Shown: in pieces, positions 46,006-53,551 of the stretch
Layout: every line of letters starts with the position of its first letter
Numbering within the stretch: position 1 is the stretch's first letter
Assembly: GCA_029245345.1 (NCBI GenBank)
Contig: JAQWPM010000021.1
Coordinates: 434,001 to 498,000 of the forward strand
Origin: Longimicrobiales bacterium
GTDB taxonomy: Bacteria > Gemmatimonadota > Gemmatimonadetes > Longimicrobiales > Gaopeijiaceae
Length of the DNA stretch: 64,000 bases
Direction of reading: 5' to 3'
Notes under the pieces: model-generated
Database searches by the model: none
Told to the model about the DNA's origin: nothing
The model's input: only the letters and a program-made list of their open reading frames with translations
Translations under genes and position numbers: made by a program

Positions 46006-46220
46006 TCACGGCCCAGGGGCGCCCGAACGGGCAACCCTGCACGCCGCACGGATGGTGTCATACAACTCCTCCCCCGTCGCAGGAAGGAATGTCTGCTTCA
46101 CCACCGGGCGTGCGATGCCTTGTTGATCCACGTCGTGAAGTTGGAAAGCGCGCCGAACGTCAGGTCGATGCCCTCGTCTTCGAGCGCCCGCCTCACGATT
46201 GCGCCACCGGTGAGCTTCAC
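46006..46220 (-). pseudogene. Relic of thiamine pyrophosphate-dependent enzyme (acetolactate synthase-like)
   Basis: Starting at GTG 46220 the frame reads KLTGGAIVRRALEDEGIDLT, the standard N-terminus of TPP enzymes, then jumps after ~20 residues to FTTWINKASHAR. A frameshift leads to PVVKQTFLPATGEELYDTIR and CRVARSGAPGP, which is the segment ending in the family's GRPGPV motif ~150 residues into the fold. About 500 residues downstream are absent. Confidence 0.6.
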
Positions 46221-46440
46221 GCTTTTGAGGTCTCTTCTCTGAGGTCTTCGATCACGCCGTCCGCTACTCGGCCCGCGAGCGACATGATGGTCAGAACTGG
46301 ATTGATTTCGATGGAGTCTGGGAAAAGAGACGAGTCGGCCACGCGAAGCCATGGGTGCCCGTGAACGCTCCCGCTCGCATCGGTTCGCGAAGTCCGCACC
46401 CCGACGCTCTGGCCGGTTCGGCGAACGCGTCCGATATTGA
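46217..46440 (-). pseudogene. C-terminal relic of GMC-family oxidoreductase
   Basis: The minus-strand frame GSVHGHPWLRVADSSLFPDS, then EINPVLTIMSLAGRVAD, is the diagnostic C-terminal end of GMC flavoenzymes (the usual HGxxxLxVxDxSxFP and NPxLTIMALA motifs). Only ~70 residues remain of ~550. Its TGA stop overlaps the GTG start of the TPP relic, showing they once formed a coupled operon. Confidence 0.75.
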
Positions 46441-46477
46441 GTGTTCGACCCTACCGCACACACTGGAGACAGACACC

Positions 46478-47065
46478 ATGCGCAAAGCGATTGCGTTCGG
46501 TCTGCTCGCGGGAGTGATCGCGTTGGGCGCGCCGGCCGATGCTAGCGCTCAGGATGGTTCAGACCTTCTCGCCGTAGGCGAGATGGCTCCGGACTTCGCA
46601 CTACCAGGAGCAACCCGACATGGGACGCTCGTGGATGACGTGCGCCTGAGTGACTATCGCGGCGAAACGGTCGTCCTCGCGTTCTTCTTCCGCGTCAGAA
46701 CGCGTGGGTGAACAGTTCAGATGACAGCGTACCGTGATCAGTACGCAAGCCTTTTCAATGCAGGACAGAACGTTGTCTTAATCGGGGTATCGAACGACTC
46801 GCAAGAGGAGCTCGGATCCTGGCTCAAGGACGAGGACTTCCCGTTCTTGTTCGCGAGCGACGCCGACAACGACGGTGCTACGTATGCAGCGTTCGGTGGC
46901 GGACTCCGTAACAACAACATGGTAGACAGCCGCGCGGTGATCGTGGTCGGGCCAGACGGCCGGATCGCACACACCATTAAGTCGTTTAACCAGAATGATC
47001 CGATGGCCTATGAAGAGCTGGCCGAAGTGATCGACCGTGTGACGCCGGAGCCCGAAGCCAACTAG
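46478..47065 (+). CDS. Exported peroxiredoxin, probable selenoprotein with in-frame TGA at the catalytic position
   Basis: ATG 46478 follows GGAGA. Residues 1-25 are a signal peptide ending ASA. The AhpC/TSA fold then begins (VGEMAPDFALPGATRHGTL). The strand TVVLAFFFRVRTRG leads to TGA (46709-46711) at codon 78 and resumes in the same frame TVQMTAYRDQY. In peroxiredoxins this position is the peroxidatic Cys of T-x-x-C; here Thr75-Arg-Gly-TGA fits with selenocysteine. The remaining 117 codons are intact to the stop. The total is 195 residues. It would reduce peroxides in the periplasm. The alternative is a Cys-to-stop nonsense mutation. Confidence 0.75.
46709..46746 (+). promoter_or_regulatory. 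Candidate bacterial SECIS element after the in-frame TGA
   Basis: A perfect six-pair stem GCGTAC (46727-46732) / GTACGC (46741-46746) closes an eight-base loop CGTGATCA. The loop starts 21 bases after the TGA, and its second base is G, matching the bacterial SECIS pattern (loop 16-37 bases downstream, G in the first two loop positions). It lies within the coding region, as in bacterial selenoprotein genes. Confidence 0.6.
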
Positions 47066-47087
47066 GCGAGGGGTCCTAAACACACGA

Positions 47088-47118
47088 GGGCCCGGTGCGA
47101 TTCACTTGCACCGGGCCC
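47088..47118. terminator. Bidirectional terminator between peroxiredoxin and TlpA-like genes
   Basis: An 11-bp perfect stem GGGCCCGGTGC / GCACCGGGCCC surrounds a nine-base loop; TTCGTTGTT follows on the plus strand. It lies 22 bases after the peroxiredoxin stop and 20 bases beyond the end of the convergent gene. Confidence 0.75.
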
Positions 47119-47138
47119 TTCGTTGTTCAGGAGATCAA

Positions 47139-47678
47139 TCAGCTCCCGAGTAGACGCTCCACCGCACCGACGAGGTCCTGCGCGGTGCCGACTCCGGTGT
47201 AGGCCACATTCCCGTCCGCATCCAGCATGACCACGATGGACGTTGTCGTCGCGTTGTAAGCACGCACGGCGGCGCCTCGTCCATCCCACAGGTACGTATA
47301 TCCCGGATCGTGCGCCTCTAGGTGACGCTTCACGCGCCGCACGCTCTGAGAGACCCCGACGGCCACGGCCACGACGTTGATTTCGTCGCCGTATCGCTCT
47401 TGGATCTCGTCCATCTGCGGCTGGAGAGCTTCGCACTGCTCACACCAGGTCGCCCAAAACTCGAGAAGCGCAGGCTTTCCTTTCACGTAGTCGATCAGGT
47501 CGACCTTGTTGCCGTCGAGGTCCTCGACTTCCGCACCTGGACCCATGGTCCCGTAGGCCAGGGACACCGAGCCTTCACCTGCCGCCTGGGCTGAGCCCGA
47601 TGTCGGAAGGGCAAGGAAAAGCGCGAGCACGAACGCCGTCCGGGTCGTGAGGGTCGAGATTTGTTCGATACGTGACAC
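47139..47678 (-). CDS. TlpA/ResA-like thioredoxin-fold protein, exported
   Basis: A 179-residue protein with an N-terminal signal or anchor (FVLALFLALPTSGSAQA) and a thioredoxin-type active site W-C-E-Q-C in LLEFWATWCEQCEALQPQMD. The fold continues with NVVAVAVGVSQS and the cis-Pro region TTTSIVVMLDADG, where the usual cis-Pro is replaced by Ser-Ile. It is nine bases after a CcdA-like gene on the same strand. The two form a thiol-reducing system: CcdA carries reductant across the membrane to the periplasmic thioredoxin. It converges on the probable selenoperoxiredoxin, a plausible client. Confidence 0.85.
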   Translation of the reverse strand: MSRIEQISTLTTRTAFVLALFLALPTSGSAQAAGEGSVSLAYGTMGPGAEVEDLDGNKVDLIDYVKGKPALLEFWATWCEQCEALQPQMDEIQERYGDEINVVAVAVGVSQSVRRVKRHLEAHDPGYTYLWDGRGAAVRAYNATTTSIVVMLDADGNVAYTGVGTAQDLVGAVERLLGS

Positions 47679-47687
47679 TTGTTTACC

Positions 47688-48419
47688 TCAAAGGTTGTAG
47701 CCGGCGATTACGAAGTAGTACTCCGCCATTCCGAGCATGAGCACGGCCGCCGCCCGTTTCACCCACACCATCCATGCTCCCGAACGCGGAAGCAGCGCGA
47801 GAGTTCCCGAAAAGAGCCCCACGGCGATCAGTAGCGTCGTCATCCCGAGCGAGAACACGAAGAGGTAGACGAAGCCCATCAGCCCGGCCTCCGTCGCGGC
47901 GACCCAGGTGAGCACGACGGCAAAAGCCGGCGCTCCGCACGGCGCTGCAACAACACCGGACATGGCACCCATGCCGAACACCGCGCCGTAGGAGCCTCCT
48001 TCGCTCTTGCTCGCGAAGTCCATGAGTCGACGCGGGACAGGTACGGGCAACACATCGAGCATGGCCAGCGCGAAGACGACCAGAAGATTTCCGATCGCAA
48101 GTCTCGTCCAAGGGCTCGCACTTACGGTGCCGAAAATTTGTCCAGAGACCCCGGCGATCGCGCCGAGCGTCGCATACAGTGTGGCGAGGCCGACAGCATA
48201 CGTGAGCGTCAGGGCAAGCGTGCGTCGCTTCGATTGATTCTCCCGAGCCGTCCCCGCAATCACTGCACTTGTGATCGGAATCATGGGGTACACACACGGA
48301 GTGAGGCTCGTCAGCACGCCGGCGCCGAACAGCACGACCAAAGCCATGAGGGGGCTTTGGGAGAGCGCCTCGGTGAGGCCGCCGGGCGGCTCAATCTGGA
48401 GTAGGGCGAAAACGGTCAC
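47688..48419 (-). CDS. CcdA/DsbD-type membrane thiol-disulfide transporter
   Basis: A six-span protein (243 residues from GTG 48419; TTG 48482 is also possible). The first redox Cys is in GVLTSLTPCVYPMIPIT and the second in SGVVAAPCGAPAFAVVL, the TPC and PCG motifs of CcdA/DsbD membrane domains. It moves electrons from cytoplasmic thioredoxin to the periplasm. It is directly upstream of the TlpA-like gene and co-transcribed with it. Role could be cytochrome c maturation (a diheme cytochrome is at 10.4 kb) or supply of reductant to periplasmic peroxidases. Confidence 0.9.
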   Translation of the reverse strand: MTVFALLQIEPPGGLTEALSQSPLMALVVLFGAGVLTSLTPCVYPMIPITSAVIAGTARENQSKRRTLALTLTYAVGLATLYATLGAIAGVSGQIFGTVSASPWTRLAIGNLLVVFALAMLDVLPVPVPRRLMDFASKSEGGSYGAVFGMGAMSGVVAAPCGAPAFAVVLTWVAATEAGLMGFVYLFVFSLGMTTLLIAVGLFSGTLALLPRSGAWMVWVKRAAAVLMLGMAEYYFVIAGYNL

Positions 48420-48600
48420 ATCAACACGGTAGAGGGGGAGCGTCGGCGGTCCAACCCCCGGCGTGGGAACTAGGTCCCTCAAGAAGCTGTTTTGGGTGGC
48501 CGGGCTTGGACGACACTGGACACCTTCGGAAGGCGGTCCAGAACGGTCCTAAGACCCGGCATGTGTTGGCACCCGCGACGCGCGGGGCCAATTTCTCTAC

Positions 48601-49729: not shown

Positions 49730-50401
49730 ATGGCGACTGAATCGAAAGGAAAGCTCAAGTTCATCCTGGGCTTCGTGGCATTTTTTGCCGCGCTCTGGTT
49801 CCTTTGGGACACATCACTCGCGTACCCGTTGAAGATCTTCGTGGTGCTGCTGCACGAGATCAGCCATGCCATCGCTTCCGTAGCGACAGGTGGTGGCATC
49901 GAGAAGATCACGCTCGATCCGCGGCAGGGCGGCGCGTGTTACTGCTTCGGCGGCAGCGCGTTCATCACGCTCACAGCAGGTTATCTGGGGAGTCTGTTCT
50001 GGGGCGCCATGATGTTCACGGCCGCACGGTCTGATAAGGTCCGAACCGACTGGGTAAACGGGTTCATTGGTGTGATGGTGGTCATCCTCACCTTGTTCTT
50101 CGTGCGTGGGAGCTTCGGAATGATGTTCGGCATCGCGTTCGGCCTCACCATGTTCATGGCCGCGAAGAAGATGGGACCGAATATGAACCGCGGGCTTCTG
50201 TTCACGCTCGGCCTCGTCAGCGTCCTCTATGCGATCCTAGACATCAAGAGCGATGTGCTGGACCGGCCAGGCATCCGATCCGATGCCGCGATGCTCTCGG
50301 ACCTAATCCACATCCCGACAACGCTTATTGGTCTCATTTGGATCAGCGTCGCCGTCGGTGTCGCCGGCTTCTTGCTCAAGCAGGCCTACGACGACGCCTG
50401 A
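49730..50401 (+). CDS. M50-like membrane metallopeptidase
   Basis: A 223-residue protein. The zinc motif H-E-I-S-H lies within the second span (FVVLLHEISHAIASVATGGG), the M50B arrangement. Five or six further spans follow (GFIGVMVVILTLFFV, GLIWISVAVGVAGFLL). M50 peptidases usually need an Asp in a later N-x-x-P-x-x-D motif; I do not see a clear one, so the third ligand is uncertain. Members of this subtype are related to YwhC/SpoIVFB-like site-2 proteases. The 3' end overlaps a decayed antisense gene by ~100 bases. Confidence 0.75.
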   Translation: MATESKGKLKFILGFVAFFAALWFLWDTSLAYPLKIFVVLLHEISHAIASVATGGGIEKITLDPRQGGACYCFGGSAFITLTAGYLGSLFWGAMMFTAARSDKVRTDWVNGFIGVMVVILTLFFVRGSFGMMFGIAFGLTMFMAAKKMGPNMNRGLLFTLGLVSVLYAILDIKSDVLDRPGIRSDAAMLSDLIHIPTTLIGLIWISVAVGVAGFLLKQAYDDA

Positions 50402-51218
50402 TTCTGTGAAATAGATCACGAGGTCACCGGGTGTGTGGGCCGGAGTCGCGAAAATCCGGACTTCCTCTCCGTTCACGACAATGATCGTGTCCGACGCGAT
50501 TTCGACACCGGGCCCTGCACTGGCTTCTTTCGCCGGCATCTCCACGCCCTCCATGAACACCTACGGCTCGTCCATAGCCGCCGTGGTCCCAGGATGGGCC
50601 CACACGGTCGCGACCGTGCCCAGTTCGGCTGCGACCCCCACGGGGTCGTCGTGCGGATGTGTAATCAACAGACGGGAGACCTCCCCGGACTCCAACGACG
50701 AAACCGCCCTCTGCAGGGAGGCGAACACAGGGAAGTATCCGGTATCGATGAGGAAGACCCCGTCATCACCCACCTGCGCGACCACGTTGGAGCCTGCACC
50801 GGAAAGGCGGTACACGGACCCGCCGAGCCGCTCCACACCCAACTCCATCTCCCTCGCTAGACCCATGACCTCTTCAAAGGCGGGCAACGTATTCATTCCG
50901 TCAAAGGACGGGTCGCACGCCGCGAACGAGATCATCAGGGATTCGATCCCCTCGTCCCATGCAACCTGTAGCCATGAGACCGCCGCATCCGCGTCTCCCA
51001 CGAGCCCCCCCCCACGAGCGGTGTGGTACTGCGCGAAGGGTCAATTGAGATGACCCGCGGGCAAATTCTCCGCAGCCAACGCCATCTGCTCGGCATACGC
51101 AGAAGAGCCCTCGGTTCCGAGCCCCTCCTGGCCGGCGGCGAAAAAGCCCCGCCATGCCTCGGCATCCTGTGCAGCCACCGGCGCCGCTGTTCCAAGCCAA
51201 AGCGCTACTACCCGTGCC
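50303..51218 (-). pseudogene. Metallo-beta-lactamase fold hydrolase, decayed
   Basis: A signal peptide starting at ATG 51218 (VVALWLGTAAPVAAQ) and a helical TPR-like start break off by frameshift near 51040. The next piece (51001-50561) has ELGVERLGGSVYRLSGAGSN and the lactamase motif LLITHPHDDPVG, in which the last His of H-x-H-x-D-H is Pro. A TAG at 50561 interrupts the frame, and the third piece (IFATPAHTPGDLVIYFTESG) ends abruptly where it runs into the M50 gene. Frameshift, amber stop, lost ligand and lost C-terminus together make this a dead gene. Confidence 0.85.
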
Positions 51219-52877: not shown

Positions 52878-53459
52878 TTAGCCGAACCGAGCAGGGGCGT
52901 TCCCAGCCTTCCACTTGATGTTGCACCCAACACTGGGAATCTGCGGATTCAGGGGGCCGTCCCCTGCGAGCACGGCGTCGATCGCGGCACCCAGGTCACC
53001 GCCGGTCACCGGGGTAGGTAGCGACGGCCTACTCCCGTCATACTGGCCGCGGTACACAAGTCTTCGGGTGGCGTCGAACAGGAAGAAGTCAGGCGTACAA
53101 GCGGCTTGGTATGCCCTCGCGATGTCCTGCGATTCGTCGAAGAGGTACGGGAACGTGTAACCCCGGCATGCGACCTCCTCCGTCATCCTGTCCGGTGCGT
53201 CGGCGGTGTATTTCTCGACGTCATTGGACATGATGCCCACCACTGCGACTCCCTTCGCCTCGTATTCCAATGCGAACGCTGAGAAGTGGTCCGCCAGGTG
53301 TTTCACGAACGGGCAGTGGTTCGACAAAAAGACGACCACGAGCGCCTCGGCTTCAGCAAAGTCGGCCAGTGAACGATTTAGGTGCGTGGCCGGTTCCGGT
53401 AGCGTGAAGTCAGGCGCCACAGTGCCGAGCGCCAACATCGCAGATGAGGTTTTTGACAT
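52878..53459 (-). CDS. AhpC/TSA-type thioredoxin-fold protein
   Basis: A 193-residue cytoplasmic protein from ATG 53459. The thioredoxin fold is clear: LGTVAPDFTLPEPATHLNRS, VVVFLSNHCPFVKHLADHFS with a single Cys in the N-H-C-P-F motif, GVAVVGIMSND, and DFFLFDATRRLVYRGQYD. This subgroup of the peroxiredoxin-like family has one conserved Cys and no resolving CxxC. It is divergent from the BtuF-like gene. Reductase or peroxidase activity is not established for this subgroup. Confidence 0.85.
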   Translation of the reverse strand: MSKTSSAMLALGTVAPDFTLPEPATHLNRSLADFAEAEALVVVFLSNHCPFVKHLADHFSAFALEYEAKGVAVVGIMSNDVEKYTADAPDRMTEEVACRGYTFPYLFDESQDIARAYQAACTPDFFLFDATRRLVYRGQYDGSRPSLPTPVTGGDLGAAIDAVLAGDGPLNPQIPSVGCNIKWKAGNAPARFG

Positions 53460-53551
53460 ACCCCAAAGTATTCGCACGCCACTTCGTCCCGCTACGAGGC
53501 ACCGCGCCCGAATTGGCGAACCGTGGGAGGCAACGGGGGTAACGGTCTCTC

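Follow-up and report, generated by a model that had tools for sequence, protein, structure and literature searches.

A probable selenocysteine peroxiredoxin of Gemmatimonadota, predicted to be exported, with phenylalanine at the site of the active-site proline

In a 64,000-nt stretch of DNA (hereafter, the window) from an assembly of 3.79 Mb that is 98% complete, we find a peroxiredoxin (Prx) gene whose peroxidatic codon is TGA. Comparison with its homologs makes it almost certain that this is a real selenoprotein gene, in which UGA78 would be read as selenocysteine (Sec). Such a Sec peroxiredoxin occurs across much of the widespread phylum Gemmatimonadota and, as standard gene callers are expected to split or truncate the gene, an antioxidant selenoenzyme of this kind can easily escape annotation. 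We lean slightly towards the view that Sec frees the peroxiredoxin active site from its canonical Pro, giving rise to an exported FxxxTxxU clade that spans Gemmatimonadota, is fed by CcdA/TlpA and has Pro back with each reversal to Cys. If this is correct, the Pro-less Sec peroxiredoxins would be a case of epistasis in which the 21st amino acid interacts with a residue of the active site.

Table 1. Coordinates of the peroxiredoxin locus within the window.
Feature	Position	Strand	Basis or remark
Probable selenocysteine peroxiredoxin gene (AhpC/TSA); 195 codons plus TAG stop, one TGA presumably read through	46478..47065	+	Pfam, homologs, dN/dS, AlphaFold2 (AF2), PDB fold neighbours
Probable signal peptide, residues 1-24 (...ADASA then QD)	46478..46549	+	Read from sequence
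Codon 71, TTC (Phe), where the Prx active-site Pro (PxxxTxxC) belongs	46688..46690	+	Homolog comparison
Codon 75 (Thr) of the TxxU motif	46700..46702	+	Three residues ahead of U78
TGA codon 78, peroxidatic position, probably read as selenocysteine	46709..46711	+	TGA/Cys homolog column and Sec machinery
Predicted SECIS hairpin, GCGUAC-CGUGAUCA-GUACGC	46727..46746	+	+16 to +35 after TGA; comparative stem and codon conservation
Codon 152 (Arg), Prx active-site Arg	46931..46933	+	Invariant
Perfect inverted repeat with 12-bp arms, lying between the convergent genes; probably a terminator for both	47087..47119	.	Read from sequence
Exported thioredoxin of TlpA/ResA type (WCEQC), proposed to reduce the peroxiredoxin	47139..47678	-	Pfam Redoxin/AhpC-TSA/Thioredoxin
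CcdA/DsbD transmembrane electron carrier, proposed to supply TlpA with electrons	47688..48482	-	Pfam DsbD_TM, E 3.7e-47

The gene and its predicted product

The initial annotation of this DNA had described an intact frame interrupted by a single TGA at the peroxidatic site, and our analysis agrees. The frame runs from its ATG to a TAG at 47063-47065 with the TGA as its sole in-frame stop, and read-through would give a product of 195 amino acids. Residues 33-165 give matches to Pfam AhpC-TSA (78.6 bits, E 4.8e-22) and to Redoxin, and both the active-site Thr (T75, in TxxU spacing) and Arg (R152) of peroxiredoxins are present. An AlphaFold2 model, built from 44 window and locus sequences, reached a pLDDT of 90.9, with low confidence for residues 1-30; its Foldseek search ranked Bcp/PrxQ peroxiredoxins top in the PDB, giving a Prx fold. 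The N-terminus resembles a probable signal peptide, MRKAIAFGLLAGVIALGAPADASA-QD. In close pairs of homologs, dN/dS was 0.15-0.17 before the TGA and 0.02-0.16 after it, and thus the gene is under purifying selection both before and after this codon.

Because the protein has no resolving Cys, its sequence describes a 1-Sec enzyme; 150/155 Sec proteins are without any other Cys. One Sec homolog (L180, G251:C1:1428607) has a longer C-terminal part, extending 180 codons past the TGA, with two Cys that are possibly resolving.

Beyond the stop codon, where a terminator had been proposed, lies a probable one, a perfect inverted repeat with arms at 47087-47098 and 47108-47119. Its loop of 9 nt exceeds the 8-nt limit of our terminator scan, which therefore did not report it. 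The annotation had also mentioned relics nearby. This is true of a metallo-beta-lactamase-fold ORF at 50303-51001 (minus strand), which is broken in frame by a TAG and is not a TGA case; the ORF just upstream of the peroxiredoxin (46098-46463, minus strand) has no Pfam match and is not shown to be a relic. Another AhpC/TSA-like protein, whose Cys codon is normal, is encoded at 52878-53477 (minus strand) and lies in the same syntenic block in 17/80 relatives.

Reading of the TGA as selenocysteine

If the TGA encodes Sec, its column in homologs should hold TGA or Cys. We read this column base by base in 214 distinct Gemmatimonadota homologs and found TGA in 162, TGC or TGT in 52, and nothing else. 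In a phylum-wide sample of 395 spread genomes, a homolog of either type was present in 311 at E 1e-20 or better, and TGA at exactly codon 78 occurs across several families. The closest named relatives are metagenome-assembled genomes (MAGs) of Gemmatimonadota. A few records among them are labelled Euryarchaeota or Gammaproteobacteria; since their genes are 76-85% identical to the window gene, these labels are probably wrong. A plasmid search returned only peroxiredoxins below 60% identity, with the best match in Gemmatirosa. Flags of '1 TAG' in some relatives were considered as in-frame stops and rejected, as they are true stop codons passed by the aligner.

All four components of the selenocysteine machinery that the initial annotation had named as a check are present in the window's genome: selA (549 bits), selB (335 bits including a second piece, cut-off 242), selD (376 bits, with one in-frame TGA) and a tRNA-Sec (65 bits) with a TCA anticodon (UCA in RNA), which ARAGORN also calls. 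Across 98 related genomes, selA accompanied the TGA gene in 47/48 cases and was found in 14/50 of the others (Fisher p 3.6e-14). In one genome (G066, locus L138) a TGA-type gene was present and no selA was found; either the assembly is incomplete or the trait has been lost. The TGA of selD sits in LSQLSHGAG-U-ACKL, the position where known SelD proteins carry Cys or Sec, and for this reason selD is probably a second, independent selenoprotein gene of the genome. A hairpin, CUCGG-GAUGU-CCGAG, lies just 3' of the TGA in the selD gene L275 (G000:C24:30597-31520). The TlpA and CcdA neighbours were also searched for Sec, and no case emerged; one TGA falls in the non-matching N-terminus of a CcdA match.

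Downstream of the peroxiredoxin TGA, a hairpin with a 6-bp stem and an 8-nt loop carries G at the second loop position, and the loop begins 22 nt past the UGA. Among 133 distinct Sec sequences, five of the six stem pairs are kept in 133/133 and the outermost in 132/133. As the stem is invariant in Sec copies, no covariation could be scored, and we instead used the freezing of synonymous sites and the contrast between Sec and Cys copies. In the same 133 sequences, the third bases of the Ala, Tyr, Gln and Tyr codons are invariant, and in the loop the third base is T in 127 of the Arg codons and 129 of the Asp codons (CGT/GAT). In the 52 Cys homologs, these codons vary, with CGC predominating for Arg and GAC for Asp, and the stem is not conserved. 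Mean hairpin energy is -9.7 kcal/mol in Sec copies versus -4.4 kcal/mol in Cys copies (Mann-Whitney p 5e-19), and the synonymous entropy of hairpin codons in nonredundant Sec copies is 0 to 0.25 bits, versus about 0.9 to 2.4 bits for the majority of four- and six-fold columns around them. At the protein level, Sec copies share the motif AYRDQYA almost without exception and Cys copies vary in it, and therefore the RNA appears to constrain the protein. Folded as a single sequence, the hairpin is not unusual against shuffles (z +1.3 and -0.9), and Rfam, both at gathering threshold and at E 10, gave no SECIS match at the locus. Because the single hairpin folds no better than shuffles, it is by comparison across homologs that we identify it as the predicted SECIS element.

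Could the TGA instead be damage? A nonsense mutation or sequencing error might have converted a catalytic TGC or TGT in an otherwise intact gene; a single base change would suffice, and the broken ORF at 50303-51001, with its in-frame TAG, is close by. The initial annotation had kept a random nonsense mutation as the less likely option. However, the same TGA recurs in 162 distinct homologs from several families of the phylum, the half of the gene downstream of it is under purifying selection, the hairpin is conserved only in TGA copies and the genome encodes the Sec machinery. A pseudogene thus has a negligible probability, and random mutation is excluded for practical purposes.

It is also very improbable that the codon is read as some other amino acid, by general reassignment of the stop or by leaky read-through. 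The frame is open past the TGA, and such a product would likewise be full length. Nevertheless, Cys is the sole alternative to TGA in the column, the conserved proteins nearby have no TGA where a sense codon belongs, many homologs use TGA as their true terminal stop, and selA, selB, selD and the UCA-anticodon tRNA-Sec are all at hand. Selenocysteine, with TGA aligned to the catalytic Cys, the complete machinery and a downstream hairpin, is the reading that we adopt.

Loss of the active-site proline

The canonical peroxiredoxin motif is PxxxTxxC, and its Pro is near-universal. In the window gene the corresponding residue, at -7 from U78, is Phe71, so that the motif lacks its Pro. This residue is Pro in 52/52 Cys copies across Gemmatimonadota. 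Among the 162 Sec copies, it is Phe in 117, Tyr in 17, Val in 2, Ile in 1, Ser in 1 and Pro in 24, that is, non-Pro in 138/162. The SECIS element does not explain this loss, because codon 71 precedes the UGA and is not part of the hairpin.

To follow the two traits, we used a tree of 144 rows with the residue-71 and Sec/Cys columns masked; it is a quick tree, in which many inner branches are weakly supported. Five Cys copies (L129, L130, L131, L190 and L216) are nested in Pro-less Sec clades, and each has Pro. A single Cys clade was rejected (AU p 1e-92). By parsimony, we infer that Sec is ancestral in the clades that hold nested Cys copies. A model in which the two traits depend on each other was preferred over an independent one (LR 32.2, 4 df, p 1.8e-6). 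An independent-pairs test restricted to well-supported branches gave six pairs, 4:0 at best, with a median p of 0.125, which is not significant alone.

Because loss of Pro is confined to Sec forms and the nested Cys forms have it again, the sequences suggest that Sec chemistry tolerates or favours its loss. The coincidence might instead be historical, with Pro loss and Sec functionally uncoupled and found in the same clades by descent. The 21 Sec rows of the nonredundant set that keep Pro speak for this, as they show that Sec does not require Pro loss, as does the shortage of independent pairs on well-supported branches. Set against it are the presence of Pro in each of the five Cys lineages that fall within Pro-less Sec clades, the count of 0/52 Cys rows without Pro and the preference for the dependent model. 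We regard an uncoupled history as possible, though not probable, and favour coupling between Sec and the lost Pro.

A further question is whether the protein is still a peroxidase. The change from Pro to Phe might have turned the peroxiredoxin scaffold into some other selenol oxidoreductase that TlpA/CcdA would supply: most Sec members lack the Pro of PxxxTxxC, and in a few Thr75 is replaced as well. We consider this unlikely, as the active-site Thr and Arg are otherwise retained and the fold is that of the Bcp/PrxQ peroxidases. The Sec copies without the active-site Thr, L024/L058 (RGGGU) and L262 (RGRNU), have Gly at that position.

Together, the Sec/Cys and Pro/Phe states form a natural experiment on how Sec alters the active site of a peroxiredoxin. 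It includes at least five apparent Sec-to-Cys reversals and tandem Cys/Sec paralogs in one genus. A 2006 survey of bacterial selenoproteins counted zero Sec-to-Cys events in peroxiredoxins (PMC1794560). Peroxiredoxin copies of the Cys/Pro and Sec/Pro types lie in tandem at L195, L206, L209, L212, L217, L219 and L200, mostly within one genus (g80).

Known relatives and the TlpA/CcdA neighbourhood

Knowledge of Sec peroxiredoxins goes back to 2001, and marine metagenomes contain many of them; the TxxU family (PF00578/COG1225) includes PrxU of Eubacterium acidaminophilum and peroxiredoxins from GOS and the Sargasso Sea (PMC13188914, PMC1088965, PMC2398784). Like members of this family, the window protein has the Prx fold and a predicted Sec that occupies the peroxidatic position of TxxU. 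For Sec forms, a 2026 review describes PxxxTxxU as conserved (PMC13188914), whereas the window gene and most of its Sec homologs depart from this at the Pro. It also differs in its predicted signal peptide and its position beside TlpA/CcdA, and it scores 45.1 bits against NCBIfam PrxU (NF040737), below the cut-off of 270. The PDB entries closest to the window protein in sequence and in fold are Bcp/PrxQ peroxiredoxins (2cx3, 3hjp, 9a4d), and PRK09437 is its top NCBIfam match. However, its score of 56.2 bits lies below that equivalog's cut-off of 140, it has no resolving Cys, it is predicted to be exported and Sec would replace Cys.

We found no mention of Gemmatimonadota in the reviews and survey searched, nothing on the window gene in the literature on selenoproteins in Gemmatimonadetes, Gemmatimonadota or Gemmatimonas, and no match in a literature search on NCBIfam/PGAP selenoproteins. 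So far as this literature shows, an exported, Pro-less, phylum-wide Sec peroxiredoxin would be a new variant, the Pro-less state having been surveyed in Gemmatimonadota.

The adjoining CcdA/TlpA thiol-reducing pair had been pointed out in the initial annotation; Pfam recognises both proteins, and relatives conserve them. At 80 named relative loci, TlpA lies near the peroxiredoxin in 64 and CcdA in 63, almost invariably in convergent orientation and usually no more than about 0.6 to 1.3 kb away. The convergent arrangement recurs at five further loci (L285-L288 and L292) that belong to other families. Among the loci inspected, it was found in 0/9 with Cys and 0/3 with Sec and Pro. Adjacency tracks phylogeny and is absent from several Sec lineages, and the correlation of the neighbourhood with the Pro-less type may reflect shared descent.

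These observations suggest a model in which the ribosome would read UGA78 as selenocysteine, with SelB, tRNA-Sec(UCA) and the hairpin directing the insertion. Once the protein is exported, its residue-78 selenolate would reduce peroxides, both export and peroxidase activity being predicted from sequence. The resulting selenenic acid would most likely be reduced by the neighbouring TlpA-like thioredoxin, which in turn would draw electrons across the membrane from CcdA. Because the great majority of the Sec proteins have no resolving Cys of their own, we consider this path from CcdA through TlpA to the peroxiredoxin fairly likely.

A comparable peroxide-reducing pathway of the envelope, ScsB-TlpA-PprX, is described for Caulobacter crescentus (Cho et al. 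2012, as summarised in PMC5403849). The two have in common a DsbD-type membrane carrier, a periplasmic TlpA and a periplasmic peroxiredoxin, which are encoded together here. They differ in that the carrier here is CcdA/DsbD_TM and the peroxidase would use Sec without a resolving Cys, with the path deduced from the neighbourhood only. At one locus (L116) the order is rearranged, with CcdA and then TlpA on the peroxiredoxin strand, and the genes are still adjacent.
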